NCBI GenBank assembly: GCA_945877405.1
Contig: CAMCSA010000023.1
Coordinates: forward strand, 1-35,250
Direction of reading: 5' to 3'
Length of the DNA: 35,250 bases
From: an uncultured Erysipelotrichaceae bacterium
GTDB lineage: Bacteria; Bacillota_I; Bacilli_A; Erysipelotrichales; Erysipelotrichaceae
Numbering within the stretch: the first letter of the stretch is position 1; each line of letters opens with the position of its first letter. The position numbers were made by a program, and so were the translations under genes. Shown here one piece after another: positions 3,339 through 31,070 of the stretch. A model generated the notes under the pieces. The model saw nothing but the letters and a program-made list of their open reading frames with translations. It was not told the DNA's origin and made no database searches.

Positions 3339-3659
3339 ATGAAGAAAGCTGCGTATAATATATTACCGGGAACAGAAGAAATCCTGCAGACTATGGGAGA
3401 ACAGATTAAGCTTGCAAGACTCAGACGGAGTTTATCTGCGGAACTGGTTGCTGAACGTGCCGGAATCAGCCGTGCCTCTCTCTGGAAGGTTGAAAAGGGA
3501 GATCCGTCAGTAGCTATGGGCATATACGCAGCTGTCCTGCATGCCTTAAATAATCTTGATAAAGATCTGCTTCTTGTCGCCAGGGATGATGAGATGGGCA
3601 GACAGCTGCAGGATCTGAATCTGATTACAAAGAAACGTGCACCGAGGAGGTCTGAATAA
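3339..3659 (+). CDS. hipB: HipB-like antitoxin, XRE-family regulator
   Basis: A 106-aa DNA-binding protein with an XRE helix-turn-helix at about residues 20-75 (IKLARLRRSLSAELVAERAG, then a recognition helix with SRASLWKVEKG). It lies directly before a HipA-type kinase and overlaps it by 1 nt (TAATG, the stop sharing an A with the next start), which is the classical hipB-hipA arrangement. By family, HipB neutralises HipA and represses the operon promoter. The promoter probably lies in 3260-3330; TTGACA at 3282-3287 and TATAAT at 3304-3309 (16-bp spacer) fit a sigma-A promoter. GGGCGGTGATTAG precedes the ATG. The Arg-rich tail (KKRAPRRSE) is typical of a flexible C-terminus. Confidence 0.85.
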   Translation: MKKAAYNILPGTEEILQTMGEQIKLARLRRSLSAELVAERAGISRASLWKVEKGDPSVAMGIYAAVLHALNNLDKDLLLVARDDEMGRQLQDLNLITKKRAPRRSE

Positions 3660-4918
3660 TGGCGGTTAATCAGAAAACAATCTTCGTTTATGATGATTTC
3701 AGTACAGAACAGCCTGTCCTTATGGGAAGTCTATATGTGAATGTTATCAAAGGCGGTGAATCCTATTCATTTGCATACGATAAAGACTGGCTGAGAAAAA
3801 CATGTCTTACTCTGACTCTGGATCCGGAGCTTATGCCGTATTCCGGAAGACAGTATCCGACCGGCAAGAACATTTTTGGCTTATTTGCAGATGCTTCTCC
3901 GGATCGCTGGGGACGCGTTCTTATGAATAAGCGTGAAAGAATTCTTGCGGAAAAGGAAGGCCGTAAGCCGTCTAAGCTTTATGACAGCGATTACCTTCTC
4001 GGCGTATATGATGAAACCCGAATGGGCGGCATTCGCTTTAAGGCAAATCAGGAAGGTCCATTCCTTTCCGATGATAAGGAAACAGCAGCCCCACCCTGGG
4101 CTACGCTTCGCACATTGGAGGAAGCTTCCAGAAACTTTGAAAATGATGAGACCGGATTAACTGAAAAATGGCTGAATCAGCTGATCAAGCCGGGATCTTC
4201 TCTGGGTGGTGCCAGACCGAAGGCAACCGTAGTGGATACAAAAGATCAGCTTTGGATTGCAAAGTTCCCGTCAAAGAACGATGAAAATGATACTGGGGCA
4301 TGGGAAATGGTGGCACATGATCTTGCAGCGCTCTGCGGTCTGAATGTCCCGGAAGCGAAGCTTGAGAAGTTTTCACCACTTGGAAGCACTTTCCTGATAA
4401 AGCGTTTTGATCGTATGGGAAGCAAGCGAGTACATTTTGCTTCTGCAATGACACTGCTGGGAAAAACAGACGGCGCATCCGCTGCTGATGGAAGTAGCTA
4501 TCTGGATATTGCAGCCTTTATCAAGTCCTATGGTGCGCAGCCGAAGAAGGATCTGGGCGAGCTTTGGAAACGTATTGTGTTTAATATGGCGGTTACTAAT
4601 ACGGATGATCACCTGAGAAACCATGCATTTATCCTGACAGATAAGGGCTGGATTCTTTCCCCTTTGTATGATGTAAACCCTGTTCCTTACGGTGATGAGT
4701 TGTCTCTCAATGTGGATGAGGAAGATAACAGTATCAGTATTGATCTTGCAGTGCAGACCGCTGTGAGATTTGGTATTTCAGAATCGGATGCTGAGGCGCA
4801 GGCGGAAGAAATTCTGAAAATAGTCAGAGAAGACTGGGAAAAAACAGCTGCCGGATATGGCCTGTCCCGTAGACAGATTGAAGAAATGCGGCCTGCATTC
4901 AGCGCTTGTTACGAATAA
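3659..4918 (+). CDS. hipA: HipA-family Ser/Thr kinase toxin
   Basis: A 419-aa HipA-type kinase, of the usual length. The N-terminal subdomain includes PYSGRQYPTGK and LFADASPDRWGR, typical of HipA. The activation/phosphate-loop motif SSLGGARPKA is at 179-189, the ATP-binding lysine is probably in WIAKFPS (about 202), the catalytic loop NTDDHLRNH is at 314-322 (catalytic Asp316/317), and the metal-binding Asp is in LYDVNP (338). All key residues are present, so the toxin looks intact. Characterised HipA proteins phosphorylate aminoacyl-tRNA synthetases such as GltX and slow translation; the target here is unknown. It is coupled to hipB by a 1-nt overlap and followed by a copy of the terminator that also precedes the pair. 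Confidence 0.9.
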   Translation: MAVNQKTIFVYDDFSTEQPVLMGSLYVNVIKGGESYSFAYDKDWLRKTCLTLTLDPELMPYSGRQYPTGKNIFGLFADASPDRWGRVLMNKRERILAEKEGRKPSKLYDSDYLLGVYDETRMGGIRFKANQEGPFLSDDKETAAPPWATLRTLEEASRNFENDETGLTEKWLNQLIKPGSSLGGARPKATVVDTKDQLWIAKFPSKNDENDTGAWEMVAHDLAALCGLNVPEAKLEKFSPLGSTFLIKRFDRMGSKRVHFASAMTLLGKTDGASAADGSSYLDIAAFIKSYGAQPKKDLGELWKRIVFNMAVTNTDDHLRNHAFILTDKGWILSPLYDVNPVPYGDELSLNVDEEDNSISIDLAVQTAVRFGISESDAEAQAEEILKIVREDWEKTAAGYGLSRRQIEEMRPAFSACYE

Positions 4919-17274: not shown

Positions 17275-18003
17275 AGTAAGATTGAAGCAGAGATTAAAGT
17301 AGGTCTTTTCCTGTTCTTTACTGCCAGCAAAGGTATCAGTGCAATGGAGATGAGATCACATTTGGATGTTAACTATAAGACTGCACTTCTGTTATGCAGA
17401 AAATGCAGAATACTGATGTCACAGTCCACTGCAGATAAAGTGTTGGATGCCATGTTCTATGAATCTGATGTCACCTATATAGGTGGACCATCCAAAGAAC
17501 CAGGGCATAGAGGTATGGCTACAGAAAAGCAGCCATATCTTATCGTTTTGTCTACAGGACAGGATAACCGGTATCCTGAATATGTTAAAGCAAAGCCTGT
17601 AACAGTTGATAACAGTGCTAATGTGAATGAAATGTTTGAATCCTGTGTAAAGATGAGCCCAGATCGTGTATTGAATACAGATGGTAAGACAACATATAAC
17701 ATTCTTAAGGATAGAATGACTGTAGTGAATCAGAAAGTCGACTATACTGACAAGAATCATCGACTGAAGTGGCTCAATACCATCATTGGTAATATACAGA
17801 CACAGATCATTGGAATCTATCATGGAGTATCCAAAAGAGATCTTCCATTATTCGTCAATGAACAGGTGTACAGATACAACCACAGAAACACTGGAAGGAA
17901 TATGTTGAATAAGATAAACAAGTATCTACGTTTATCATCACCTATGCCAAGAAAGGCAATCATTCAGTTTCTGGATCAGGCGATGGCATCTTTCACAGCG
18001 TAA
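17275..18003 (+). pseudogene. IS1595-like transposase relic (N-terminus lost)
   Basis: The frame is open from 17275 to TAA 18001-18003 and reads KVGLFLFFTASKGISAMEMR, LDVNYKTALLLCRKCR, YESDVTYIGGPSKEPGHRG, VLNTDGKTTYNILKDR and IIGIYHGVSKRDLPLFVNEQ followed by VYRYNHRN. These match the IS1595/ISXO2 DDE-type order: an HTH, a first acidic motif before YIGG, a central D (TDG) and a C-terminal YHGVSK...YRYN block. The N-terminal zinc-ribbon part is missing: upstream of 17275 only stop-broken remnants are seen (TGA 17272-17274). No terminal inverted repeats were recognised. It is probably inactive. Confidence 0.6.
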
Positions 18004-19335: not shown

Positions 19336-20061
19336 TTGGAAAAGTTGTTGCTTGTTTTGATTCCTGCTGTATGTGCAGGTCTGATTCAGGGAGTCACAGG
19401 ATTTGGTGCAGGTATTGTCATGATGATCTTTCTGCCGATGATCTTTCCTGTTGTTACCAGTGCGGGAATATCTCAGTCAATCTGTCTTGTATTAACGTTC
19501 ATGATGTTTTTACGATACAGGAAATATGCCAATCTGAAGCTGATTGCATGGCCTGCTGTGATCTTTCTTGTGGTCAGCAGTATATGCATGCAGTATTCTC
19601 AATATGTGAATCAGAATCTGATGAAACTGATTCTTGGCATCTTTCTTCTTCTGCTTTCCATCTGGTTTCTCTTTCTAGCAAGAGATGACTTCCATCCAAA
19701 AGGAATCGTATCATTTCTTTGTGTAGCAATATCTGGTATGTGTGATGGATTGTTTGGCGTAGGTGGTCCATTGATGGTTGTTCTGTTTTTATCCAGAACG
19801 GAATCAAAGGAAGAATACCTTGGTACCATACAGAGCTTCTTTCTTCTGACAGTGCTTTATGCAGTTGGATTCCGTTTTATGAATGGTCTTCTTCCATTTG
19901 ATGCGATCAGCTATATTGCGATTGGAATTGTTGGAGTACTCAGTGGACTGGTGATTGCCAATAAGATTGTAGAGAGAATAAATGGAGAGCTTCTTAAGAA
20001 GCTGACGTACGTTCTGATTGGAATATCAGGTATCATCAATGTCATAACTGTATTGTTGTAA
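19336..20061 (+). CDS. TSUP/TauE-SafE family membrane transporter
   Basis: A 241-aa integral membrane protein with about eight membrane segments and the two pseudo-repeat signatures of the TSUP family: LIQGVTGFGAGIVMMIFLP near the N-terminus and MCDGLFGVGGPLMVVLFLS in the second half. Members move sulfite, sulfonates or organic anions across the membrane; the substrate here is unknown. It starts with TTG at 19336, supported by GGGAGG at 19321-19326, and no better in-frame start exists. It is separated from the RpiR gene by a terminator, so control by that regulator is not assured. A terminator follows immediately. Confidence 0.85.
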   Translation: MEKLLLVLIPAVCAGLIQGVTGFGAGIVMMIFLPMIFPVVTSAGISQSICLVLTFMMFLRYRKYANLKLIAWPAVIFLVVSSICMQYSQYVNQNLMKLILGIFLLLLSIWFLFLARDDFHPKGIVSFLCVAISGMCDGLFGVGGPLMVVLFLSRTESKEEYLGTIQSFFLLTVLYAVGFRFMNGLLPFDAISYIAIGIVGVLSGLVIANKIVERINGELLKKLTYVLIGISGIINVITVLL

Positions 20062-20087
20062 GGATGGCTGAGGCTGTCCTTTTTTTG
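20061..20087 (+). terminator. Rho-independent terminator after the TSUP gene
   Basis: AGGATGGC (20061-20068) pairs with GCTGTCCT (20073-20080), including two G-U pairs, over TGAG, followed by seven T. The stem begins inside the stop codon. Confidence 0.8.
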
Positions 20088-20396
20088 CTATGAGAAAATG
20101 AAAAAAGAGTGATAAATAACATGATTGGCTAGGTGCACGTTACGTGCAGGTTTGATTTGTGTTTGAGAATGAACGAATTGGAAGAAAACTATTGCGAATC
20201 AGGTAGAATAAGTACTAAGCTTTAATCAACAATAGATTATGCAGTAACGAAAAAAGTGTGTTTCGCGCAATCTGCAAAGACTTCTAAAAGAAATATGTAG
20301 AAGGTCAGAATGACTGGCCTTCTACAGTTCATGATATGTTTTATTGGAAATGACATTCCTATACAGCATAGGTTATTAAGAACGAGGATATCAGAC
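20088..20396. other. Gene-free stretch with two palindromes
   Basis: No coding sequence is seen. GCACGT-T-ACGTGC near 20132-20148 is a short perfect palindrome. GTAGAAGGTCAG (20297-20308) and CTGGCCTTCTAC (20314-20325) form a strong 12-bp hairpin with one G-U pair and no T tail, about 70 nt before the methyltransferase start. It could be a 5'-leader structure of that operon or the terminator of a lost gene. Confidence 0.4.
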
Positions 20397-20993
20397 ATGC
20401 AGAATAATCAGACATTGGAATACTATGAAAAGAATGCAGATGCCTATGTAAAGGATACAGTTTCTGTTGATTTTACGGATGTACAGAATCGTTTTATGCA
20501 GGCATTAAAAGGACGTAAGATACTGGACTTTGGATGTGGATCCGGAAGAGATACACTGTATTTTCTGAACGCCGGTTATGATGTGGATGCTATGGATGGC
20601 TGCAGGGAATTCTGTATCAGTGCAAGTCAGTTAACAGGTATTCCAGTCAGGCATATGCTGTTTCAGGAGTTGAATGAAATTGATTACTATGATGGCATAT
20701 GGGCATGTTCCTCTATTTTGCATGTATCAAAAAAAGATCTGAAAGATGTATTTACCAGGATGATCCGTGCATTACGTCAGGATGGAATCATCTATACTTC
20801 ATTCAAATATGGAGAATATGAAGGTGAAAGAAATGGCAGATACTTTACGGATTTTACGATTGAAAGCTTTAAGGAATTCATTGCTGGTTATGATGATGTG
20901 ATCATAGAAGATTACTGGCTCAGTGGTGATGTCAGACCAGGAAGGGAGGAAGAGAAATGGTTGAATCTGATACTAAGAAAGATCTCTTCCTGA
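20397..20993 (+). CDS. Class I SAM-dependent methyltransferase (small-molecule type)
   Basis: A 198-aa methyltransferase. Motif I is ILDFGCGSGRDTLYF (about residues 42-56), the acidic motif II is VDAMDG, and motif IV is DGIWACSSILHVSKKDL. The overall form is that of UbiE/TehB-like enzymes acting on small molecules or small targets. There is no DPPY/NPPY motif of DNA N-methyltransferases and no PCQ motif of C5 enzymes, so a classical restriction methylase is unlikely. ATG 20397 is chosen (GAGG 8 nt upstream, fold starts there) over an in-frame ATG at 20310. The 3' end overlaps the nuclease-helicase gene by 37 nt, so the two are almost certainly translated together. Confidence 0.82.
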   Translation: MQNNQTLEYYEKNADAYVKDTVSVDFTDVQNRFMQALKGRKILDFGCGSGRDTLYFLNAGYDVDAMDGCREFCISASQLTGIPVRHMLFQELNEIDYYDGIWACSSILHVSKKDLKDVFTRMIRALRQDGIIYTSFKYGEYEGERNGRYFTDFTIESFKEFIAGYDDVIIEDYWLSGDVRPGREEEKWLNLILRKISS

Positions 20994-23479
20994 ATGACCA
21001 TCCTGGATTCAGACTTTGTGATCTGGTTGAATATCCCAATGGTGGCAGATCAGAGTTCTATGAGAATGGAACAGATATGATCATCATAGATGAAGATATC
21101 TGTAAACATGAACAGAATGATCCCGTTTTCCGTTATATGCTCATCACAGAAAAGCAGAATCTGTATATGAACAGGTTTCAAAGAGTATTCAGATTTCTGG
21201 GTTATGATAAGGAAGAGATAGATCATTATCTGTCTTCAAAAGAAATAGAAATTTCTGTTGAGGATCTGAATTCGATCGGTGATCGAGCAGAACAGGTGAA
21301 TGTATCACCGTTGGAAATGAAGTTTGAGCAGAACTTTACAAATGCCTATGGCAGGTCTGCATTACGGTATCTGACAAGGGAATACAGTATCTGTGATGAA
21401 CAGGGCAATCACTATTTCCTGGATTATTTCATTCGAACAGAAAATCATCAATATGCAGTTGAAGAAAACGGAGTTACCTATCATCATCCACAGATCATTG
21501 GTGAAAGCAGATATCGCAAACAGTTGAAAAAGCAGAATACATGCACGCAATGGGGCATTCAGCTGTATCGTTTCTCTACAGAGGACTGTGAGTTTGAAAA
21601 CAGAATTGAAGATGATATCAAACAGTACTTTGGAAAGGATACATCCGGTTTCATTGATGATGGATTGAAGGTAGACCGCAAGGTTGCTTTATATGAACAT
21701 CAGTCCATCAGTTTACAGGAAATACAGAATCGAAGAAAAGCAGGCATTAAAGCATTCCTGATTGTACTGCCGACTGCAGCTGGGAAATCCAGAATTGTAG
21801 AAGAGGATATCAGAGATTATGCAAAGGATTGCGATGAATTCAGAGCTCTGATTCTGGTGCCAGGACATAATACTCGGGATGACTGGAAGAAACGCGTACA
21901 TCATTCATTGCCGCAACTGGAAGGCTGTATTGATATCTGCACATATGCGTATATGGCAAGGCATTATGCAGAACTGCCATCAGATACATATGATTACATG
22001 GTTGTGGATGAAGCACATCATGCGGTAGCTCCTGTATTGAAACGTGTTATCCAGTATTTCAATACAGGATTTACAGTCGGATTAACAGCTACAGATCAGC
22101 GCCCGGATAAGAAAAAACTGGAAACAGTATTCGGGACATATTCTACTTCACTGTCATTAAAGCAGGCAATGGAGAAAGAGATTGTAGCCAGAGCCAATGT
22201 ATTCAGAATAGAAACCAATATTGATCTTTCTCATGTCAGGTTCAACGGTAAGGATTATGTCAATGCAGATCTTGAGAAAAGAATCAGAGTGACATCACGA
22301 AATGAACTGATTGTAGATGTGCTGAACAGCTACTGTACTGAAGGCGAGATGGGACAAAGGCAGGGTGTTATATTCTGCGTCAATGTATCCCATGCCAATG
22401 AGATGGCTAGACTGATGAATCAGGCAGGTATCAGTGCTGCTGCCTATACAGGACAGACAAAGAAGGCTGATGATGTAATGGAATCATTCCGGCAGAAAAA
22501 AATCAGATTCCTATGTTCCTGTAATATGATCTCAGAAGGATGGGATTACCCTGAACTTGGCATACTTGTCATGGCAAGACCGACTCTTTCCAAGGTACTT
22601 TATCTGCAGCAGATCGGCAGAGGTTTACGCAGAACAGATACAAAGAAGAATGTACTTGTTATTGATGTTGTGGATGAATATGGCGCAATGGTAAAGGCAT
22701 GTAATATGCATGCAATCTTTCAGAATACATACTATGTCCCATTTGGGGATATCACCAGAACAGATTATCGTCCAGGTGATCTGATCGTGATTGATGGAAT
22801 GGAAGAAAGAGTAACAAGAATCGTCAAAGTAGATATTGATACATTCGAGAATAAGTATGGGGATTATCTCAGCCAGGAACAGGTAGCCAGGGAATACTTT
22901 GTCAGTACCGGTACGGTTACAAGCTGGATTAAAAAGGGTAAGATTATTCCTACTGTACAGTACAGTTTTGGCAGTAAGACTATCTATATGTTCAGTCCAT
23001 CGGATGTTGAAAAATACAGAATAGAGCTTGGTATCAAGGAACATAATGATGCCACGATCAAAGAGGACTTCTTTGATTTCATGGAAGAAAGAGACTACTC
23101 TTTGTCATATAAAATGCCATTCATGTTGTCATTCATGAAGCATGTGGATGAAATAGGTGATGCAAAGATTGATGATGTACTGGATGATTACATTGCTTTC
23201 TACCAGGATCGAATAGATCGAGGACTTCAGGTAGATCGTAAAACATGTCCATACAATGATCAGACACTGAAAGACAGAAAGTCCATATGCAGAAACATGC
23301 TCACAAATCCTTTTGAAAAGTTTGAACGTAAAAGATTCCTGTACTACTCAAAGGATCTTAGTGTAATATCCATGAACCATGCATTATTTGCTCAACTGAC
23401 TTTGGAAGATCGGAAAAGAATCGATGATCAGCTGAAGGATGATCTGAAGAATTACTATGCAGATATGGGCGGAGTGTAA
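20957..23479 (+). CDS. SF2 DEAD/DEAH helicase with nuclease-like N-terminus and HTH domain
   Basis: A large 840-aa protein. Residues about 115-215 resemble a PD-(D/E)xK/Vsr-like fold (EMKFEQNFTNAY, FLDYFIRTENHQYAVEENG, then TYHHP and a Leu-Tyr-Arg-Phe strand); Asp156 and Glu169/170 would be metal ligands, but the usual Lys is Asn171. Residues 240-580 are the helicase core: Walker A PTAAGKS (272-278), DEAH (351-354), GLTAT (375-379) and motif VI QQIGRGLRR (551-559). Residues about 637-690 form a MerR/excisionase-like HTH (SQEQVAREYFVSTGTVTSWI). The tail is unassigned. The core resembles restriction/defence translocases. GGGAGG lies 8 nt before the ATG, inside the overlapping methyltransferase gene. 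It may be a defence or DNA-repair enzyme; the role is inferred. Confidence 0.82.
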   Translation: MVESDTKKDLFLNDHPGFRLCDLVEYPNGGRSEFYENGTDMIIIDEDICKHEQNDPVFRYMLITEKQNLYMNRFQRVFRFLGYDKEEIDHYLSSKEIEISVEDLNSIGDRAEQVNVSPLEMKFEQNFTNAYGRSALRYLTREYSICDEQGNHYFLDYFIRTENHQYAVEENGVTYHHPQIIGESRYRKQLKKQNTCTQWGIQLYRFSTEDCEFENRIEDDIKQYFGKDTSGFIDDGLKVDRKVALYEHQSISLQEIQNRRKAGIKAFLIVLPTAAGKSRIVEEDIRDYAKDCDEFRALILVPGHNTRDDWKKRVHHSLPQLEGCIDICTYAYMARHYAELPSDTYDYMVVDEAHHAVAPVLKRVIQYFNTGFTVGLTATDQRPDKKKLETVFGTYSTSLSLKQAMEKEIVARANVFRIETNIDLSHVRFNGKDYVNADLEKRIRVTSRNELIVDVLNSYCTEGEMGQRQGVIFCVNVSHANEMARLMNQAGISAAAYTGQTKKADDVMESFRQKKIRFLCSCNMISEGWDYPELGILVMARPTLSKVLYLQQIGRGLRRTDTKKNVLVIDVVDEYGAMVKACNMHAIFQNTYYVPFGDITRTDYRPGDLIVIDGMEERVTRIVKVDIDTFENKYGDYLSQEQVAREYFVSTGTVTSWIKKGKIIPTVQYSFGSKTIYMFSPSDVEKYRIELGIKEHNDATIKEDFFDFMEERDYSLSYKMPFMLSFMKHVDEIGDAKIDDVLDDYIAFYQDRIDRGLQVDRKTCPYNDQTLKDRKSICRNMLTNPFEKFERKRFLYYSKDLSVISMNHALFAQLTLEDRKRIDDQLKDDLKNYYADMGGV

Positions 23480-23532
23480 GACTGTTTAATTGAATATACA
23501 CCATTTATTCCATTGATTGATAAGGATGAGGA

Positions 23533-23832
23533 TTGGATAAAACACATAAATTCTTCTGTGTGAATGAAAATGAAAAGGTCAATGGAGTTATTACATGTGA
23601 TGGATTTGTAGTAAGAAAAGGAAGCCTGATTTCTTCTGTCGTTACAGATGATTGTTCTGAATATGTAGTAAAGAAACGTAAACAATGTAAGTATTTGATA
23701 AATGACAGTAACTTATTGCAGGAAGATGTTTTATTCGGCTCACCTACTGGAACGTCAGATTTTGTATGTGGCACAAATACTGATGGAACTGTAGAATGGA
23801 AGAGAAAGGATGGTAATTGCGGAAGTATGTGA
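23533..23832 (+). CDS. DUF4357 domain protein
   Basis: A 99-aa protein made almost only of a DUF4357-like domain: KFFCVNENEKVNGVITCDGF, FVVRKGSLISS, QEDVLFGSPTGTSDFVCG and EWKRKDG. DUF4357 normally sits at the C-terminus of GIY-YIG or restriction-type proteins and may bind nucleic acid, so a free-standing copy is of interest. It could be a truncated remnant, but the frame is clean. The only usable start is TTG 23533, preceded by AAGGA 6 nt upstream; a stop lies just before it. It follows the nuclease-helicase by 53 bp on the same strand and ends before the terminator at 23890, so it belongs to that operon. Confidence 0.65.
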   Translation: MDKTHKFFCVNENEKVNGVITCDGFVVRKGSLISSVVTDDCSEYVVKKRKQCKYLINDSNLLQEDVLFGSPTGTSDFVCGTNTDGTVEWKRKDGNCGSM

Positions 23833-23889: not shown

Positions 23890-23911
23890 GTCGCCCAACA
23901 GGCGACCTTTT
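23890..23911 (+). terminator. Rho-independent terminator
   Basis: GTCGCC (23890-23895) pairs with GGCGAC (23901-23906) over CAACA, followed by CTTTTC. It closes the methyltransferase-helicase-DUF4357 transcript. Confidence 0.75.
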
Positions 23912-23955: not shown

Positions 23956-24621
23956 ATGATGATCAGTCCGGAAACATATTATGAGATGAATCTGCAAGGT
24001 AAATCCCCAAAGGAAATCATGAAGAAGATCAGATCCCTGAAGATACAGATTGGGCAGTTAAAGAGGAGCATCGAAAAAACTGATGATATGGTTTTAGAAG
24101 TATTTCCGGGCAGATTGACAAGACTCAAGTGTGATCAGGATTATCTGGAACGTGCTATTCAGGCATACGAAGAAGCTGGTGGAGAATATGTTCGATCAAA
24201 AGCAGAACAGAAAGATTATGACTTCAATAAGGCATTGGATTCCATGAGTCAACTGGTGTTTACCATTGGTGGTTTCTTCTGTGGTCAAGAAACAAGAACA
24301 TTTACAGTATCAGATGATCAGGTTCTGGTGGATGTTGAAAAGATCCTGATATCGATGGATAAAGAAGAAGAGTATGGCCCTTACAGGAAAGAAGACTTTA
24401 TTTCCGGAATCAAGGCTCTCCATATAGGAGAATGGAAGAGAACATACAAAGATCCACTTGTTATGGATGGAACACAATGGGAACTGGATATCTACTACAA
24501 TAATGGCAGAAAAGCAGTAAAGATCTCAGGCAGCAATGCCTATCCATATAATTTTGAAGATCTGAAAGAATTTCTTGAAGTAGAAATGGAGGATGAAGAA
24601 AATGAGCAGAATCAGGATTGA
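23956..24621 (+). CDS. Uncharacterised protein coupled to the macro-domain gene (221 aa)
   Basis: I do not recognise a named family. The first 75 residues are helical and probably coiled-coil (ISPETYYEMNLQGKSPKEIM, SLKIQIGQLKRSIEKTDD, DQDYLERAIQAYEEAGGEY). The remainder is an alpha/beta segment (IGGFFCGQETRTFTVSDDQ, LHIGEWKRTYKDP, QWELDIYYNNGRKAV). The end is very acidic (EVEMEDEENEQNQD). It is soluble, with no signal or membrane segment. GGAGG lies 8 nt before ATGATG. It overlaps the macro-domain gene by 20 nt, so the two are cotranslated and their products may act together. Confidence 0.75.
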   Translation: MMISPETYYEMNLQGKSPKEIMKKIRSLKIQIGQLKRSIEKTDDMVLEVFPGRLTRLKCDQDYLERAIQAYEEAGGEYVRSKAEQKDYDFNKALDSMSQLVFTIGGFFCGQETRTFTVSDDQVLVDVEKILISMDKEEEYGPYRKEDFISGIKALHIGEWKRTYKDPLVMDGTQWELDIYYNNGRKAVKISGSNAYPYNFEDLKEFLEVEMEDEENEQNQD

Positions 24622-25579
24622 ACAGCTAGGAATAACAAAAACAGGAACAGAATGTATCGTAAATGCAGCTAATGAAAATTTACAGGCTGGTGGTGGCGTA
24701 TGTGGAGTTATATTCCAAGCTGCAGGACATAAACAGTTACAGAAAGCATGTGATGATATTGGGTATTGTCGTACAGGATCCGCTGTCATTACTCCAGCAT
24801 TTCATCTGAATGCAAAATACATTATTCATGCAGTTGGCCCTGTATGGTATGGTGGCAAGAAGAAAGAACCGCAGAAACTATATGGTTGCTATAAAGCATC
24901 ATTGAATCTTGCAAAAGAGCATGGATGTCATTCCATCGCATTTCCATTGATCTCAGCTGGTATATTTGGCTATCCAAAAGATCAGGCATGGAGAAAAGCT
25001 TTGCAGGCATGCAATGATTTCATTCATGACAATCCTGACTATGATATGGACATTCTCTTTACCATACCTGATCCGCAGATACTACAGATGGGATTGGCAG
25101 AGCTGAAATCACAGACAAAGAATGCACATACACAACAAGAAGAGAAGGTTGTAGCAGAAAACACGGATGATGATCTTCTTAGCACATTGAATGGAAAGGC
25201 TTTGAAGACTGCAATAGACAGCGTAAAAACAGTAGGAAAGATTCAGTGGAAAGGTGGTAAAGAATCTGATGGGATCATGGAGATACCGTATCCAGACTAT
25301 CCGGATGAGATATGGGTGAGTTTTTCGATATTTGATCCGGACACGGACTATTCAGATAACTATGAGAAATACTGCAAAGGTGTACTTCCAACTGATATGA
25401 ATGCTCATCAAATCAGAACGATGCTGACATTTATTGAGCGTGGGGAAAGATTCTGCGATGGACATGTTCAGCGTTATCTGGAAAACAATATCCTGTTGAA
25501 GCTGTTGTTACGCCTGGATGATCTGCTGATTGTTTATGATCAGAAGTATGGTTATATGGAAGAACTTAATTATTTGTAA
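24602..25579 (+). CDS. Macro domain-DUF6508 protein
   Basis: A 325-aa protein. Residues 1-170 are an ADP-ribose-binding macro domain: IVNAANENLQAGGGVCGVIF (19-38), then YIIHAVGPVWYGG, and the phosphate loop SAGIFGYP (118-125). In YmdB/MacroD2 enzymes GGGVDGAI carries a catalytic Asp; here it is Cys34 (GGGVCG), so hydrolase activity may differ. Residues about 195-325 resemble DUF6508 (YPDYPDEIWVSFSIFD, TMLTFIERGERFCDGHVQ). Such proteins probably recognise or remove ADP-ribose from protein or nucleic acid. Start 24602 is preferred over ATG 24593 because GGAGG (24588-24592) is 9 nt away from 24602 and abuts 24593. It converges with the kinase gene, with only 16 bp between stops. Confidence 0.82.
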   Translation: MSRIRIEQLGITKTGTECIVNAANENLQAGGGVCGVIFQAAGHKQLQKACDDIGYCRTGSAVITPAFHLNAKYIIHAVGPVWYGGKKKEPQKLYGCYKASLNLAKEHGCHSIAFPLISAGIFGYPKDQAWRKALQACNDFIHDNPDYDMDILFTIPDPQILQMGLAELKSQTKNAHTQQEEKVVAENTDDDLLSTLNGKALKTAIDSVKTVGKIQWKGGKESDGIMEIPYPDYPDEIWVSFSIFDPDTDYSDNYEKYCKGVLPTDMNAHQIRTMLTFIERGERFCDGHVQRYLENNILLKLLLRLDDLLIVYDQKYGYMEELNYL

Positions 25580-25595
25580 ATACCACAAACATTTC

Positions 25596-26663
25596 CTAAT
25601 GCGTAAGAAAAGCAAGAATGATCAGCATTATGAAAAACAATGTTGCTACAAGAATAATATCCAATAATATTATTCCAATGCATCTTATGAATGGATTCTT
25701 ATGTCTACATAGTGGGAATTGATTTTGAATGTTTACGTAGTTACAGGTTCCACCAACTATTGATAACATCATGAAAAGACAGAAGAAACGCTGTATCCAT
25801 AATTCCACTCCGTAGGTATTTTCAACGATGAGCGTTAGAGATAACCATAGAATGATAATATAAATTGGAATAGCGATGAGCATTTTCCATACGGTATGTG
25901 TTCTAAAGCCTGGTGGCAACAATTGGCTGGAGGTGAAATCAGAGGTTGTTCCAGTATGAGAATTACATGCTGATTGAATATCCCTGGAAAGTTCTAGAAC
26001 ATTGTCATAACGTTCCTTGGGGTTCATTTGAATGCATCTTTCGGCAATACTGAGTAATCTGTTGGGGACGTTGGTCATGTGATCAGCTGCTTCTTTGATC
26101 AAAACTCCTATTGCGTATATATCTGTTTGAGGAGAAGATGAGCCAAACCCATACTGTTCTGGTGCTGCGTATCCTTTCGTTCCAAGAAGAACGGTATCAT
26201 TTGTGGAAGTGTCAGAGTAGAGTTTGGCGGCATTAAAATCAAGCAAAACAACATGGTTCTGTTCCGTAATCATGATGTTTGAGGGTTTAATGTCTCGATG
26301 TATGATCGGTGGATTTAGTTGATGCAACTGACTGAGAATATCACATAATTCGATGAGATAATCTGTCAGAGCTGTTACTGTGAGGTGATTATTATTGATT
26401 ACATCCTCAAAGGTTGTTCCTGATACGTAGGATTCGATAACAATAAGCTGGTTGTCGATTTCAAAGAATTCTTTGATTCTTGGAATGCCATATATAGGAA
26501 TGTCTTTCAGTTTCTTATAGACATCAATGTTATAAATATCAATGGTTTTCTTTACGTAAATCTTTTTGGTTTCCTGATGTTGAACAAGAAAAATATTGTG
26601 TGGCTCATTCAGCGTTGCAATAGTTTTGTAATATGACAGGTCTACTTGTTGAGAATAATCCAT
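25596..26663 (-). CDS. Membrane-anchored Ser/Thr protein kinase
   Basis: A 355-aa Hanks-type kinase. The catalytic domain spans about 10-230: ATP-binding Lys38/39 in IYVKKT, catalytic loop HRDIKPSN (122-129, Asp124), metal-binding DFN (142-144) in place of DFG, activation segment to GYAAPEQYG, and TDIYAIGVLI. The N-lobe has no recognisable Gly-rich loop (TLNEPHNIFLV). The C-terminal 100 residues carry about three hydrophobic membrane segments (near 259-281, 288-307, 326-352) and no PASTA domains, so the kinase faces the cytoplasm without a long external sensor. It is divergent from an HTH-like gene with 54 bp between starts. Targets are unknown. Confidence 0.85.
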   Translation of the reverse strand: MDYSQQVDLSYYKTIATLNEPHNIFLVQHQETKKIYVKKTIDIYNIDVYKKLKDIPIYGIPRIKEFFEIDNQLIVIESYVSGTTFEDVINNNHLTVTALTDYLIELCDILSQLHQLNPPIIHRDIKPSNIMITEQNHVVLLDFNAAKLYSDTSTNDTVLLGTKGYAAPEQYGFGSSSPQTDIYAIGVLIKEAADHMTNVPNRLLSIAERCIQMNPKERYDNVLELSRDIQSACNSHTGTTSDFTSSQLLPPGFRTHTVWKMLIAIPIYIIILWLSLTLIVENTYGVELWIQRFFCLFMMLSIVGGTCNYVNIQNQFPLCRHKNPFIRCIGIILLDIILVATLFFIMLIILAFLTH

Positions 26664-26717
26664 ACCATCATTCCTTCCAATACTTTTATACGTATAATAT
26701 CAAAATGGAGAACAAAA

Positions 26718-27179
26718 ATGAACGAGAAAAGCACTATAGAGTTAGAACAGGTTTTACGGAGCACACACGCAAAAGATTTTAAACAGTTTTGCGATAGTAA
26801 CAGAGAATGTGCAAATCCTGAAGATAAACCATTCGTGGAATACTTCAAATTGCTGTTTAAGGAAAAAGGAATAACACAACAGACTGTTTTTCTGAAAGCG
26901 GATATTCCGGAAAGATATGGGTATAAGCTTCTTTCTGGTGAAAAACATACGAAGCAAAGGGATGTAATACTGAGGATCTGCTATGCGGCTGAGTTTACAT
27001 TAACGGAAACACAAAGAGCATTGAAAAAATATGGTATGCCTGAGTTGTATGCGAAGATTTCAAGGGATGCATTGCTGATGATTATGTTCAATGAAAGACC
27101 AGGCAGCATTGCTGATGTAAATGAAGTATTACAAAAACATGGAATGGATCCATTAAGAACAAGCGGTACTCAAGAATAA
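26718..27179 (+). CDS. HTH-like protein divergent from the kinase (153 aa)
   Basis: A 153-aa soluble protein with a probable XRE-like helix-turn-helix (FKLLFKEKGITQQTVFLKAD then YGYKLLSGEKHTKQRDVILR, about 47-90), followed by helices that include LTETQRALKKYGMPELYAKI. The second part (SRDALLMIMFNERPGSIADV) probably mediates dimer or partner contacts. Similar HTH proteins next to small Hanks kinases occur in gut Firmicutes by my recollection and may be substrates or regulators of the kinase. ATG 26718 follows GGAG by 7 nt; an in-frame ATG at 26646 would lie inside the kinase gene and is rejected. The short shared intergenic region suggests joint control. Confidence 0.75.
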   Translation: MNEKSTIELEQVLRSTHAKDFKQFCDSNRECANPEDKPFVEYFKLLFKEKGITQQTVFLKADIPERYGYKLLSGEKHTKQRDVILRICYAAEFTLTETQRALKKYGMPELYAKISRDALLMIMFNERPGSIADVNEVLQKHGMDPLRTSGTQE

Positions 27180-27336
27180 ACAAGTTACCACCGTTACGGG
27201 GGCAATGGAGCTTTAAAGTATGTGATAGACTTTTTTCAATGATAACTGACTGATTGGTGTGAAATAAATGGAAAAAACTAATGTTACATTTAGATAAATC
27301 TGCTTATCAGCACTGATCGTCTGAGGAGGAAGTTAA

Positions 27337-28236
27337 ATGGAAAAGAATTTAAAGCTACTGGCAATGGTGTTGTGTTTAACACTGTTTGGTACGATGGCAC
27401 TTGGGTGTGGCTCTTCAGGTTCGGGAGGAGACAAGGAAATAGCAAGTGTAACGAATCCTGATTCAGAAAAGGAAACTGATCAGGAAACCAATTCTGCTGT
27501 AACGATTGAAGAACAGGTTCTATTCGAAGGAAATGATTTCAAAATAACAGCAACCGGAATAGAGGATGGATTCTTTGGTACGGATCTGAAATTGCTGATT
27601 GAAAATAATTCAAGTCAGAACATCACAGTACAGGCAAGAAATTCCAATGTGAATGGATTTATGGTAGAGACAATGATGTCTGCGGATGTTGCTGCAGGTA
27701 AAAAAGCGAATGATTCATTAACATTTGAAACTACTGGATTAAAGGATTGTGGAATTGATTCTATTGCAACAATGGAATTTACACTTCATATTATGAATTC
27801 TGAATCATGGGAAGATATAGTAGTTACGGATACCATTGTAGTAAATACATCAATTGCTTCTACATATGTTCAAAAAGCAAATGATTCTGGTGAAGTTCTT
27901 TTTGATTCAAATGGAGTAAAAATTGTAGGAAAAGGATTATCTGCAGATGATTCCTTCTGGGGACCTGGGGTAATTCTTTACATCGAAAATAATACAGACA
28001 GAAATATTATAATTCAGACCAGAGATGTTTCTGTAAATGGCTTTATGGTTGAATCTATTATGTCCGAGGAAATAGTGGCAGGTAAAAAAGCAATGAGTGC
28101 TGTTCAGTTCTTATCATCAGATTTAGAGGCGAATTCTATTACTGATATAACAGACGTAGAATTGTATTTCACAATCGTTGACTCAGATTCCTGGGATACG
28201 ATACAGGACACTGATGTTATTGCTATCTCATTTTAA
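27337..28236 (+). CDS. Lipoprotein with two tandem beta-rich repeats
   Basis: A 299-aa secreted lipoprotein. The signal peptide ends in a lipobox (MALGC, modified Cys24), followed by a Gly/Ser linker and an acidic/Asn-rich spacer. Two homologous units follow: about 62-170 (VLFEGNDFKITATGIEDGFF, VQARNSNVNGFMVETMMS) and about 185-299 (VLFDSNGVKIVGKGLSADDS, IQTRDVSVNGFMVESIMS). Each resembles the DUF4352/DUF5067-like immunoglobulin-type fold seen in many Firmicute lipoproteins. The duplication is clear by eye. AGGAGG lies 8 nt before the ATG. It follows the HTH gene by 157 bp and precedes a small membrane protein by 28 bp. Function is unknown; it is possibly the outside sensor or effector of the kinase locus. 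Confidence 0.82.
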   Translation: MEKNLKLLAMVLCLTLFGTMALGCGSSGSGGDKEIASVTNPDSEKETDQETNSAVTIEEQVLFEGNDFKITATGIEDGFFGTDLKLLIENNSSQNITVQARNSNVNGFMVETMMSADVAAGKKANDSLTFETTGLKDCGIDSIATMEFTLHIMNSESWEDIVVTDTIVVNTSIASTYVQKANDSGEVLFDSNGVKIVGKGLSADDSFWGPGVILYIENNTDRNIIIQTRDVSVNGFMVESIMSEEIVAGKKAMSAVQFLSSDLEANSITDITDVELYFTIVDSDSWDTIQDTDVIAISF

Positions 28237-28932: not shown

Positions 28933-29634
28933 CTAGTGGAATACTTCTGTATTGACGGAAGGCTTGATGCGTTTGGCTGTAACGCATAACCTCTTGTTGT
29001 TGATTCCGAGTGGAACACATGTAATCAGTGTGCATAGGGATGAACCTGGATTGCGTGTATACCACGATAAATCATCCGGATCTGTTTGAAGAACAGATAT
29101 GACGGTATATGCCATTTCCCGATTGAGTACAGTGATGGAAAAGGTATCTCCAATCTTCATGGATGGAAGGTCTGTAAACATTCTGGCTGTAGAGAGTCCG
29201 CTATGTGCAGTGAATACGGTATGTGTATTCAGCTCACCTGTAGGCAGATCTGACCATTCACAATGACCTGCTCCATTTTGAAGAGTTGTGTTATCTGTAC
29301 CATGATATACAGGTAATGTAATTCTGATGGATGGAATGGAGATTTCAGCCATCATTCCATTTCCATCCAGATTAAGCAGATTATTGTATTCATTCAATTG
29401 GATTTGAGATAAAGAGGTAATTGAATGATCGGATGCGAGAGTCTGATTGTACTCTCTGCATTGGACAAGCATCCTGTTTTTCTGTTCCTTGTGTAACTGT
29501 TGCGCTGAAAGGTGATGGCTTGAAATAATATAAGCCTGTTTGCTTTCAACGATATATGGAATGAAGATTAGAAATGAGAAGATCAGAACAGATACAGTAA
29601 TCAGAATGTATCCGATTCTCTGATATATTTTCAT
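28933..29634 (-). CDS. Class C-like (pilin) sortase
   Basis: A 233-aa membrane-anchored transpeptidase with one N-terminal membrane segment (ILITVSVLIFSFLIFIPYIV). Sortase-fold motifs are complete: GAGHCEWSDLPTGELNTHTV, catalytic His144 in FTAHSGL, catalytic Cys206 in LITCVPLG and Arg215 in NNKRLCVTAKR. The LPTG...NTHTVFTAHSGL region matches class C (pilus-polymerising) sortases, but no C-terminal membrane helix is present. It would join pilin subunits through the LPASG signal of the gene before it. The start is ATG 29634-29632, which overlaps the pilin stop as ATGA, indicating translational coupling; an upstream in-frame ATG at 29688 inside the pilin gene is rejected. Confidence 0.88.
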   Translation of the reverse strand: MKIYQRIGYILITVSVLIFSFLIFIPYIVESKQAYIISSHHLSAQQLHKEQKNRMLVQCREYNQTLASDHSITSLSQIQLNEYNNLLNLDGNGMMAEISIPSIRITLPVYHGTDNTTLQNGAGHCEWSDLPTGELNTHTVFTAHSGLSTARMFTDLPSMKIGDTFSITVLNREMAYTVISVLQTDPDDLSWYTRNPGSSLCTLITCVPLGINNKRLCVTAKRIKPSVNTEVFH

Positions 29635-31070
29635 ACATGTCTGCGGTGATGGAGTACAAGGAAGATTCCAGCTACCATAGTAATACATCCTGTGATCGCT
29701 AAAACAAGGAAACTGGAAGAACCGGAAGCAGGCAATGTAATACCAGGCTTATTGACAATAATGAATCCACCATTAACGGTTGTACCACTGACTGTACCGG
29801 TATTGTTGCCATCGACGGTGATTTCCTCGCGGTGTGTCAGTTTCTGATACCCTTTTGGTGCCTGCACTTCTTCGATATAATACTTGCCTGTAGCCAGACC
29901 TTTGATATGCCAGCTTGATAGTATGATATCTTCTGTACCAGTTGGGTCAGAAATAAGATAATTATCATTCACGTTTTTGAATCTCAAAGCTGTTCCACCA
30001 GCAGATTCTCTGTAGACACGGATGATTGCATCATTCAGTACTTTGTTTTGAGAGCCCGCTTTTGTGATTGTGATCTTTGTTGTTTCGATGAACAGTGTCT
30101 GAGTTGATGTCTGGTTGGAATATTGGAATGTGATGGTATTTTCATTCACATCTCCCTGATTGTTAATAACCTTAGCATCTTTAGAAAGGATTGCCTGATA
30201 ATCAATTGTCAGCATGTCTGTTTCTGCAAGCGTCGATACAAAGGTGTCTGAGAATGTGATTGTCAGTTTTCTGTCGTTGGTGTCTGAAACTGTCTGGGTA
30301 TAAGAAGTGCTGTCAACTGCTTGTGGTGTTTCACCAGAACGGGTAAGGGTAACATTCACACCTGATATTGAATGCAGATAGGTCAGATCAGAAACAATGT
30401 TCATGGCCTTGTTGTTACCTTTTCCAGGTGTGATCTGAATCTGATAATAGACAGGGTCATTGATTGTACCACTGATTTTCTGATCCGTGAATGCATCTTC
30501 TACTCTGCTTTTCTGAACTGCTTTGAATGATGGTACAGTGTTCTTTTCATTGATGGAAATATTTGGGGTGGTTGATTCCAACATGATATATGAGCCTGCT
30601 GAGCTGGAAAGCCAGTAGTAGCCAAATGAGACACTGTTCCATTGAATTGTTTCACCAACAGCACATGAGTTTGCATCCAGGCTTGCAGAACTGATTGCAC
30701 GCCCGCCAAGCAGGGATTCCTTGCTTTTGAAGAAGTCTGATATGCGTGGATCTGTGCTGGAATAATCGGATTTATAGGTTACAACATACTCATCCGTGCT
30801 CATGATCTGTGTCAGTATAAATGGACTTTCTTCAGAAATCAGTGCATCAAAGAATAGATCTGATGCCTGCCTTTTGTATGTTGGTGCAGTTAAAGAACCT
30901 GAATAGGTCAGGTCAAACACTTTATAAAGCTGGTATTTTTCACCGATAATGGCATTGTTTACAAAAATGTTTCCTGATTCATCTGCGAGTATTTCGACAA
31001 ATGGAATGATACAAAAAGATACTACGAAAGAAACTGCTAACGCAAATGCGCGCTTAAAAAACGAAAACAT
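29631..31070 (-). CDS. Isopeptide-forming fimbrial pilin with LPASG sorting signal
   Basis: A 479-aa secreted, cell-wall or pilus-linked protein. It has a signal peptide (about 1-29), an N-terminal pilin domain (IFVNNAIIGEKYQLYKVFDL), a middle domain from about 185 (DPVYYQIQITPG, then SISGVNVTLT and a TIDYQAIL strand), and a SpaA/Cna-B-like C-terminal domain (ITITKAGSQNKVLNDAIIRV) with the E-box YYIEEVQAPKGY (397-408), typical of internal isopeptide bonds. It ends with LPASG (446-450), a hydrophobic helix and HHRRH. Ser at position 4 replaces the Thr of LPxTG. No YPK-type pilin lysine motif is evident. AAGGAG lies 6 nt before the ATG. With its coupled sortase it forms a minimal pilus operon, with no separate tip or anchor pilin in the window. 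Confidence 0.88.
   Translation of the reverse strand: MFSFFKRAFALAVSFVVSFCIIPFVEILADESGNIFVNNAIIGEKYQLYKVFDLTYSGSLTAPTYKRQASDLFFDALISEESPFILTQIMSTDEYVVTYKSDYSSTDPRISDFFKSKESLLGGRAISSASLDANSCAVGETIQWNSVSFGYYWLSSSAGSYIMLESTTPNISINEKNTVPSFKAVQKSRVEDAFTDQKISGTINDPVYYQIQITPGKGNNKAMNIVSDLTYLHSISGVNVTLTRSGETPQAVDSTSYTQTVSDTNDRKLTITFSDTFVSTLAETDMLTIDYQAILSKDAKVINNQGDVNENTITFQYSNQTSTQTLFIETTKITITKAGSQNKVLNDAIIRVYRESAGGTALRFKNVNDNYLISDPTGTEDIILSSWHIKGLATGKYYIEEVQAPKGYQKLTHREEITVDGNNTGTVSGTTVNGGFIIVNKPGITLPASGSSSFLVLAITGCITMVAGIFLVLHHRRHV

Follow-up and report, generated by a model that had tools for sequence, protein, structure and literature searches.

The label of restriction–modification usually rests on DNA-methylase motifs in the methylase, and in known systems the mark of self comes from DNA methylases or from the Dnd machinery. 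SauUSI, a Type IV enzyme that attacks DNA modified with 5mC or 5hmC and ends in a DUF3427 domain, acts as a single polypeptide in which an N-terminal nuclease of the PLD (HKD) type is followed by an SF2 translocase. HKD(PLD)-SF2 and HNH nucleases are common partners of the Dnd phosphorothioate modification genes (PMC10853773), and swapping between PLD and PD-(D/E)xK nucleases is documented in the YprA-family systems DISARM, Dpd and ARMADA (PMC12458937), which combine a helicase, a methyltransferase and one of these two nuclease types. Here we describe a locus that is like each of these in part and in which a methyltransferase lacking DNA-methylase motifs is paired with a nuclease-translocase.

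The window, by which we mean the whole stretch of 35,250 nucleotides that was analysed, comes from an uncultured Erysipelotrichaceae bacterium and holds the methyltransferase (MTase) gene, the nuclease-translocase gene and a stand-alone DUF4357 ORF (Table 1). A first-pass annotation made from the letters of the window had proposed these three as a candidate defence module, with a 37-nt overlap of the first two; the ORFs and the overlap were recovered as described, with the MTase stop at 20993 and the nuclease ATG at 20957. The MTase ORF is open from an ATG at 20310, with the start at 20397 favoured by the alignment of relatives and preceded by a GAGG-type ribosome-binding site. A strong ribosome-binding sequence, GGGAGGAAGAG, lies just upstream of the nuclease ATG, inside the MTase gene. 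The DUF4357 ORF has a TTG start, 53 nt past the nuclease gene. A hairpin scan found terminator-like hairpins at the two outer ends (20060-20081 and 23890-23906) and none between the three genes, so a single transcript for all three is plausible. About 250 nt before the MTase there is also a near-perfect palindrome, TGCACGTTACGTGCA (20134-20148), with a core for which chance predicts 0.01 occurrences in the window; visual inspection of stretches upstream of the relatives' genes showed none.

Table 1. Features of the locus, in window coordinates.
Feature	Position	Strand	Basis
MTase: class I SAM-dependent methyltransferase, 198 aa	20397..20993	+	ORF listing, Pfam, PDB 3e23, alignment of relatives
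Nuclease-translocase, 840 aa	20957..23479	+	ORF listing, Pfam, PDB match, alignment
Overlap of MTase and nuclease genes, 37 nt	20957..20993	+	nuclease start within codons of the MTase EKWLN motif
Putative PD-(D/E)xK nuclease domain, residues 118-207	21308..21577	+	REase_MTES_1575 and DUF559 matches of homologues
SF2 helicase-like motor core, about residues 240-580	21674..22696	+	Pfam, PDB match, alignment
Putative MerR/excisionase-like helix-turn-helix, residues 637-687	22865..23017	+	HTH_17 below cut-off; low-confidence model
Conserved C-terminal domain, residues 690-840	23024..23476	+	alignment; hhalign
Stand-alone DUF4357 ORF	23533..23832	+	Pfam

The MTase matches the Methyltransf_25 and TehB entries of Pfam, and its nearest solved relative is RPA2492 (PDB 3e23, E 1e-29), itself uncharacterised. 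Its GxGxG motif is intact, and alignment of the family reveals as invariant LDxGCGxGRD, ACxSxLH, KYG, two arginines and WLN. The DNA-methylase motif [DNS]PP[YFW] is absent, the corresponding stretch being ACSSILH. The earlier description of a small-molecule-type methyltransferase holds. Its relation to TehB is at the superfamily level only, as it scores 36-37 bits against NCBIfam cut-offs of 218-303 for the TehB tellurite methyltransferase equivalogs. About half of the family are orphans, some of them in conserved metabolic neighbourhoods (within L171-L189: L171, L172, L174 and L182-L189), so the original substrate of the family need not be DNA; the substrate of these orphans would inform the whole family.

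The large protein begins with a region described at first pass as PD-(D/E)xK-like. It carries the motifs PLExxFE, E142, D156, E169-x-N171-G, HHP, Q189-L-x-K192-Q-N and R205-F-S, of which E120, D156 and E169 are invariant among homologues. Among 16 homologous nuclease domains, eight hit the REase_MTES_1575 profile, the best at 2.7e-5, and one hits DUF559 at 4.6e-4, while the window domain alone has no profile match and a profile search of the domain against PDB sequences gave nothing meaningful. The assignment as a PD-(D/E)xK nuclease of REase_MTES_1575/DUF559 type is thus backed by the profile matches of relatives and by conserved acidic residues, and not by a structural fold, the AlphaFold2 model of residues 1-240 having a pLDDT of 43 from an alignment too shallow for a usable model. 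The claim of an SF2 translocase is borne out by a match to ResIII at E 8e-18, by one to Helicase_C at E 5e-12 and by the motor motifs TAAGKS, DEAH, TAT and QQIGRGLR, with Walker A and B, motifs III and VI and the RecA pair all present. The nearest PDB entry to this core is SauUSI (7clg) and the nearest PADLOC family is mREase_IV.

Behind the motor, the HTH_17 match (E 1.4e-4) is below the Pfam cut-off, and a low-confidence AlphaFold2 model of residues 578-840 (pLDDT 54, from a shallow alignment) places helices and a hairpin over this region; a fold search with the same model gave a best Z of 4.5, which is not interpretable. The C-terminal domain, with the motifs SYKMPFML and NPFEKFERKRF, is related to the C-terminus of the PLD-SF2 proteins discussed below (hhalign E 1.7e-6, probability 90%), and its YK motif was also compared with the N-terminus of their HNH counterparts (E 0.004, probability only 8%). 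It could be a target-recognition element. No HsdS-type specificity domain was found in the window genes scanned with Pfam and PADLOC, which, together with the missing [DNS]PP[YFW], agrees with the original remark that neither a DNA methylase nor a specificity subunit is recognisable.

Compared with SauUSI, the window protein has the same order of N-terminal nuclease and SF2 translocase in one chain and a related motor core, and some relatives of the MTase partner SauUSI-like proteins. It differs in the type of nuclease, in a C-terminus made of the putative helix-turn-helix and another domain, and in its constant MTase neighbour; as Pfam gave neither a PLDc nor a DUF3427 match, a SauUSI-type Type IV enzyme is ruled out. 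Type I and III restriction–modification systems likewise join a motor and a PD-(D/E)xK nuclease in one protein beside an MTase gene, but are ruled out because the MTase does not have the motif of a DNA methylase; the genes scanned contained no recognisable HsdS or target-recognition domain, and an equivalent of Mod or HsdM is missing. The Dnd modules, whose HKD-SF2 or HNH nucleases include PbeA, are similar in placing a DNA-modification module beside exchangeable nucleases, whereas the window has a single small MTase in place of Dnd genes and no Dnd genes at the locus. YprA-family systems use another helicase family and a PglX-like DNA methylase with an NPPW motif, and are multi-gene. As for MADS, the MTase aligns with a section of the mad2 methyltransferase profile at E 6e-11, and the helix-turn-helix weakly matches mad1. 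The mad2 alignment, however, spans just positions 286-417 out of 492, and the ten window proteins scanned gave no more than partial hits to mad2, mad1 and the mad6-like kinase rather than an ordered mad1-mad8 set, so the locus is not MADS. In agreement with the first reading, no PADLOC model scanned and no paper found in the literature searched describes the combination, an absence which is no proof of novelty.

The pair is a real and conserved unit. The MTase adjoins the nuclease in 17 of 17 other intact homologues with readable surroundings, or 18 loci counting the window (the others being L001-L007, L046, L048, L049, L050, L052-L055, L146 and L148, with L003 a near-copy of L002 and L046 of L007; L147 ends at a contig end and was left out). 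The MTase comes first in 15 of these 17 and last in two (L050 and L148). L001-L007, L046 and L048 share the overlap of 37 nt with the window, and elsewhere the spacing is -34, -26, -11, 0 or +1 nt, so that neither order nor overlap is peculiar to one strain. Divergence by codon position indicates protein-level constraint on both genes. Degraded loci are also seen: L008 has a frameshift in its nuclease gene and an MTase 5 kb off, and L009 and L010 are remnants without the nuclease.

Full-length nuclease homologues are found in Erysipelotrichaceae, Lachnospiraceae and other Bacillota, and their distribution is horizontal and patchy rather than that of a core gene: they occur in seven of 296 genomes of the class and nine of 392 of the phylum, the window's own included, and share 75% identity between the two families. 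These figures, and the defence genes among the neighbours, disfavour a core DNA-repair or housekeeping pair with no role in conflict, which we regard as very improbable even with an SF2 core distantly similar to RadD and XPB and with MTase relatives in metabolic neighbourhoods. The tree of the MTases disagrees with that of the helicases, and the pairing label shifts at least six times on the MTase tree; L048, for example, has a nuclease of the window clade and an MTase of the L052-L056 group, and the MTases of L050, L148, L149 and L150 come from another clade. The association has therefore been re-made or reshuffled, and not merely inherited. Viral contigs scanned with the helicase sequence gave no relative, and with the alignment gave distant SF2 helicases only.

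The most informative fact about the locus, and one missed when a single window was read, is that the MTase is the constant partner and the nuclease the exchangeable one. When the surroundings of MTases from family searches were read, counting as partner a nuclease within about 1.3 kb, three unrelated types were found: the PD-(D/E)xK-SF2 protein of the window type, a PLD-SF2 protein and an HNH protein. By manual count, 36 of 74 inspected MTases adjoin one of the three. The PLD-SF2 partners at L058, L156, L161 and L163 are SauUSI-like (PADLOC mREase_IV, E to 1e-102), with PLDc matches in those of L058 and L163, and overlap the MTase (L058 -31, L163 -31, L156 -8 and L161 -76). The two are fused in L041:7971-9755, on the Polaromonas plasmid pW11NP2; the SF2 part of this fusion is truncated and a transposase gene lies just downstream. 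The HNH partners form one family, present at 17 of the 60 loci retrieved by searching with the MTase; from the HNH side, the MTase adjoins 11 of 16 homologues in relatives, an adjacency almost nil by chance on an estimate of about one MTase per some 2,300 genes. For all three types the nuclease start codon can fall within the stretch of the MTase gene that encodes its invariant EKWLN motif. Viruses and prophages carry such pairs as well: HNH-MTase pairs occur in five of eight viral contigs checked (L221 and L222 being near-copies), and some MTase-nuclease pairs are prophage-borne. On a gut virome scaffold (L235:4267-9507) a PLD-SF2 helicase, a MutT/NudG-like NUDIX protein, the MTase and an HNH protein stand in a row, and this may be the system at its most complete.

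The overlap would give tight translational coupling, as expected if the MTase regulated its partner, methylating the nuclease or a shared ligand and holding the nuclease off until phage interference with SAM or with the MTase released it, in the manner of an antitoxin or guard. An intact MTase does accompany a broken nuclease in five loci (L008, L051, L056, L149 and L150) and the reverse is never seen, but five against none is weak evidence since the nuclease gene is four times longer. One MTase family would moreover need to recognise three unrelated nuclease folds, and we consider regulation improbable.

Another rival, which we rate higher, concerns nucleotides. The nuclease-translocase may attack modified phage DNA in the way of a Type IV enzyme, with the MTase processing the freed modified nucleotides or blocking their reuse, like the NUDIX and MazG-like enzymes encoded nearby. 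The motor's kinship with SauUSI and mREase_IV fits this, as do relatives beside PLD-SF2-DUF3427 genes. The MTase's small-molecule ancestry, the metabolic orphans and the hydrolases at some loci favour it, MutT/NudG-like NUDIX genes being found near relatives in L005, L159, L176, L202 and L235 and MazG-like genes in L162, L169 and L202, which suggests nucleotide chemistry. Yet the NUDIX genes go with DUF3427 helicases rather than with the MTase, both NUDIX and MazG are missing from the majority of pairs of the window type, DUF3427 is not matched by the window protein, and the constancy of the MTase is left unexplained. We hold this account to be possible but doubtful.

A modification role for the MTase is preferred mainly because of one Dnd locus and the nucleases that Dnd modules use. 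In L217:770-8025 (genome G095) a relative of the HNH partner (36% identity, E 9e-77) starts directly after DndA of a DndBCDEA operon, in which DndD and DndE are called above cut-off, DndA just below it, and DndB and DndC are read from the preceding ORFs. It is as if, in this single locus, a DNA-modification module stood where the MTase would; the argument is one of analogy. The neighbourhoods of the pairs, which the first-pass annotation had suggested inspecting, contain defence genes, both established and candidate: L056 has a Wadjet locus together with an Hhe-like gene, and elsewhere there are PDC-M33 genes in L001 and L005, and Type IV and Type II genes. At 1e-20, PADLOC gave 66 families among 107 neighbours and 10 among 103 controls (neighbours of orphan MTases), a contrast overstated by several families matching one protein; counted by protein, some twelve neighbours and about six controls are involved.

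Our main reading, to which we give a probability of roughly 45%, is an anti-phage module of restriction type, made of two genes, in which the MTase acts as the modification partner. The large protein would be an ATP-driven restriction enzyme that binds DNA through its helix-turn-helix and C-terminal domains, translocates by its SF2 motor and cuts with its N-terminal domain. The MTase, as dedicated partner, would mark host DNA, or a precursor of it, and so protect the genome of the cell from the nuclease. Of the restriction-like logic first proposed, the conserved pairing, nuclease profiles, patchy distribution and defence neighbours stand; from these, and from the domain content and the exchange of partners, we infer defence activity, DNA cleavage and, above all, the MTase product as self-mark. 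The features of the MTase speak against a modification role: it has only about 200 aa, no [DNS]PP[YFW] and apparently no target-recognition domain, and its lineage (TehB, RPA2492) is small-molecule-like. The stronger proposal, that the locus represents a new restriction–modification type in which a TehB-like MTase makes a self-mark on DNA or on a DNA precursor by a chemistry unlike that of known DNA methylases, and in which three unrelated, interchangeable nucleases read this mark, is tentative and a good deal short of probable. What matters is that, by its genomic behaviour, an MTase without DNA-methylase motifs resembles a modification enzyme. Should DNA be its substrate, both the chemistry of the modification and the code that tells self from non-self would be new, and defence finders that rely on motifs would have missed them; otherwise, a recurrent small-molecule MTase is coupled to DNA nucleases by a different, equally testable logic.

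The part of the first proposal that fell is the membership of DUF4357. The ORF matches its Pfam family at E 8e-8, below the family cut-off, and DUF4357 forms the C-terminus of the PADLOC candidate proteins PDC-S14 and PDC-S57. A three-gene system with DUF4357 as modified-DNA or specificity component would draw on this, and on the shared strand, short gap and lack of a terminator by which the ORF is probably co-transcribed with the pair here. A homologue occurs in none of the other fetched loci, so DUF4357 is not a conserved component, and such a system is scarcely credible.

Several further genes lie near the pair. Macro-domain (ADP-ribose) proteins are encoded within a few kb in the window (24593-25579), L005, L009, L049, L054, L151 and L215, with no gap to the pair in the case of L049 and L054 and behind an HNH gene in L215, and look commoner than chance. 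The window also has an IS1595-type transposase (17344-18003), a HipA-like toxin kinase (3659-4918) and a sortase with a SpaA-type pilin (28933-31070). A Ser/Thr protein kinase on the minus strand (25596-26663) resembles the PD-T4-6 and Mad6 kinases and, with the small unassigned ORFs beside it (26646-28236), is a possible second defence unit.
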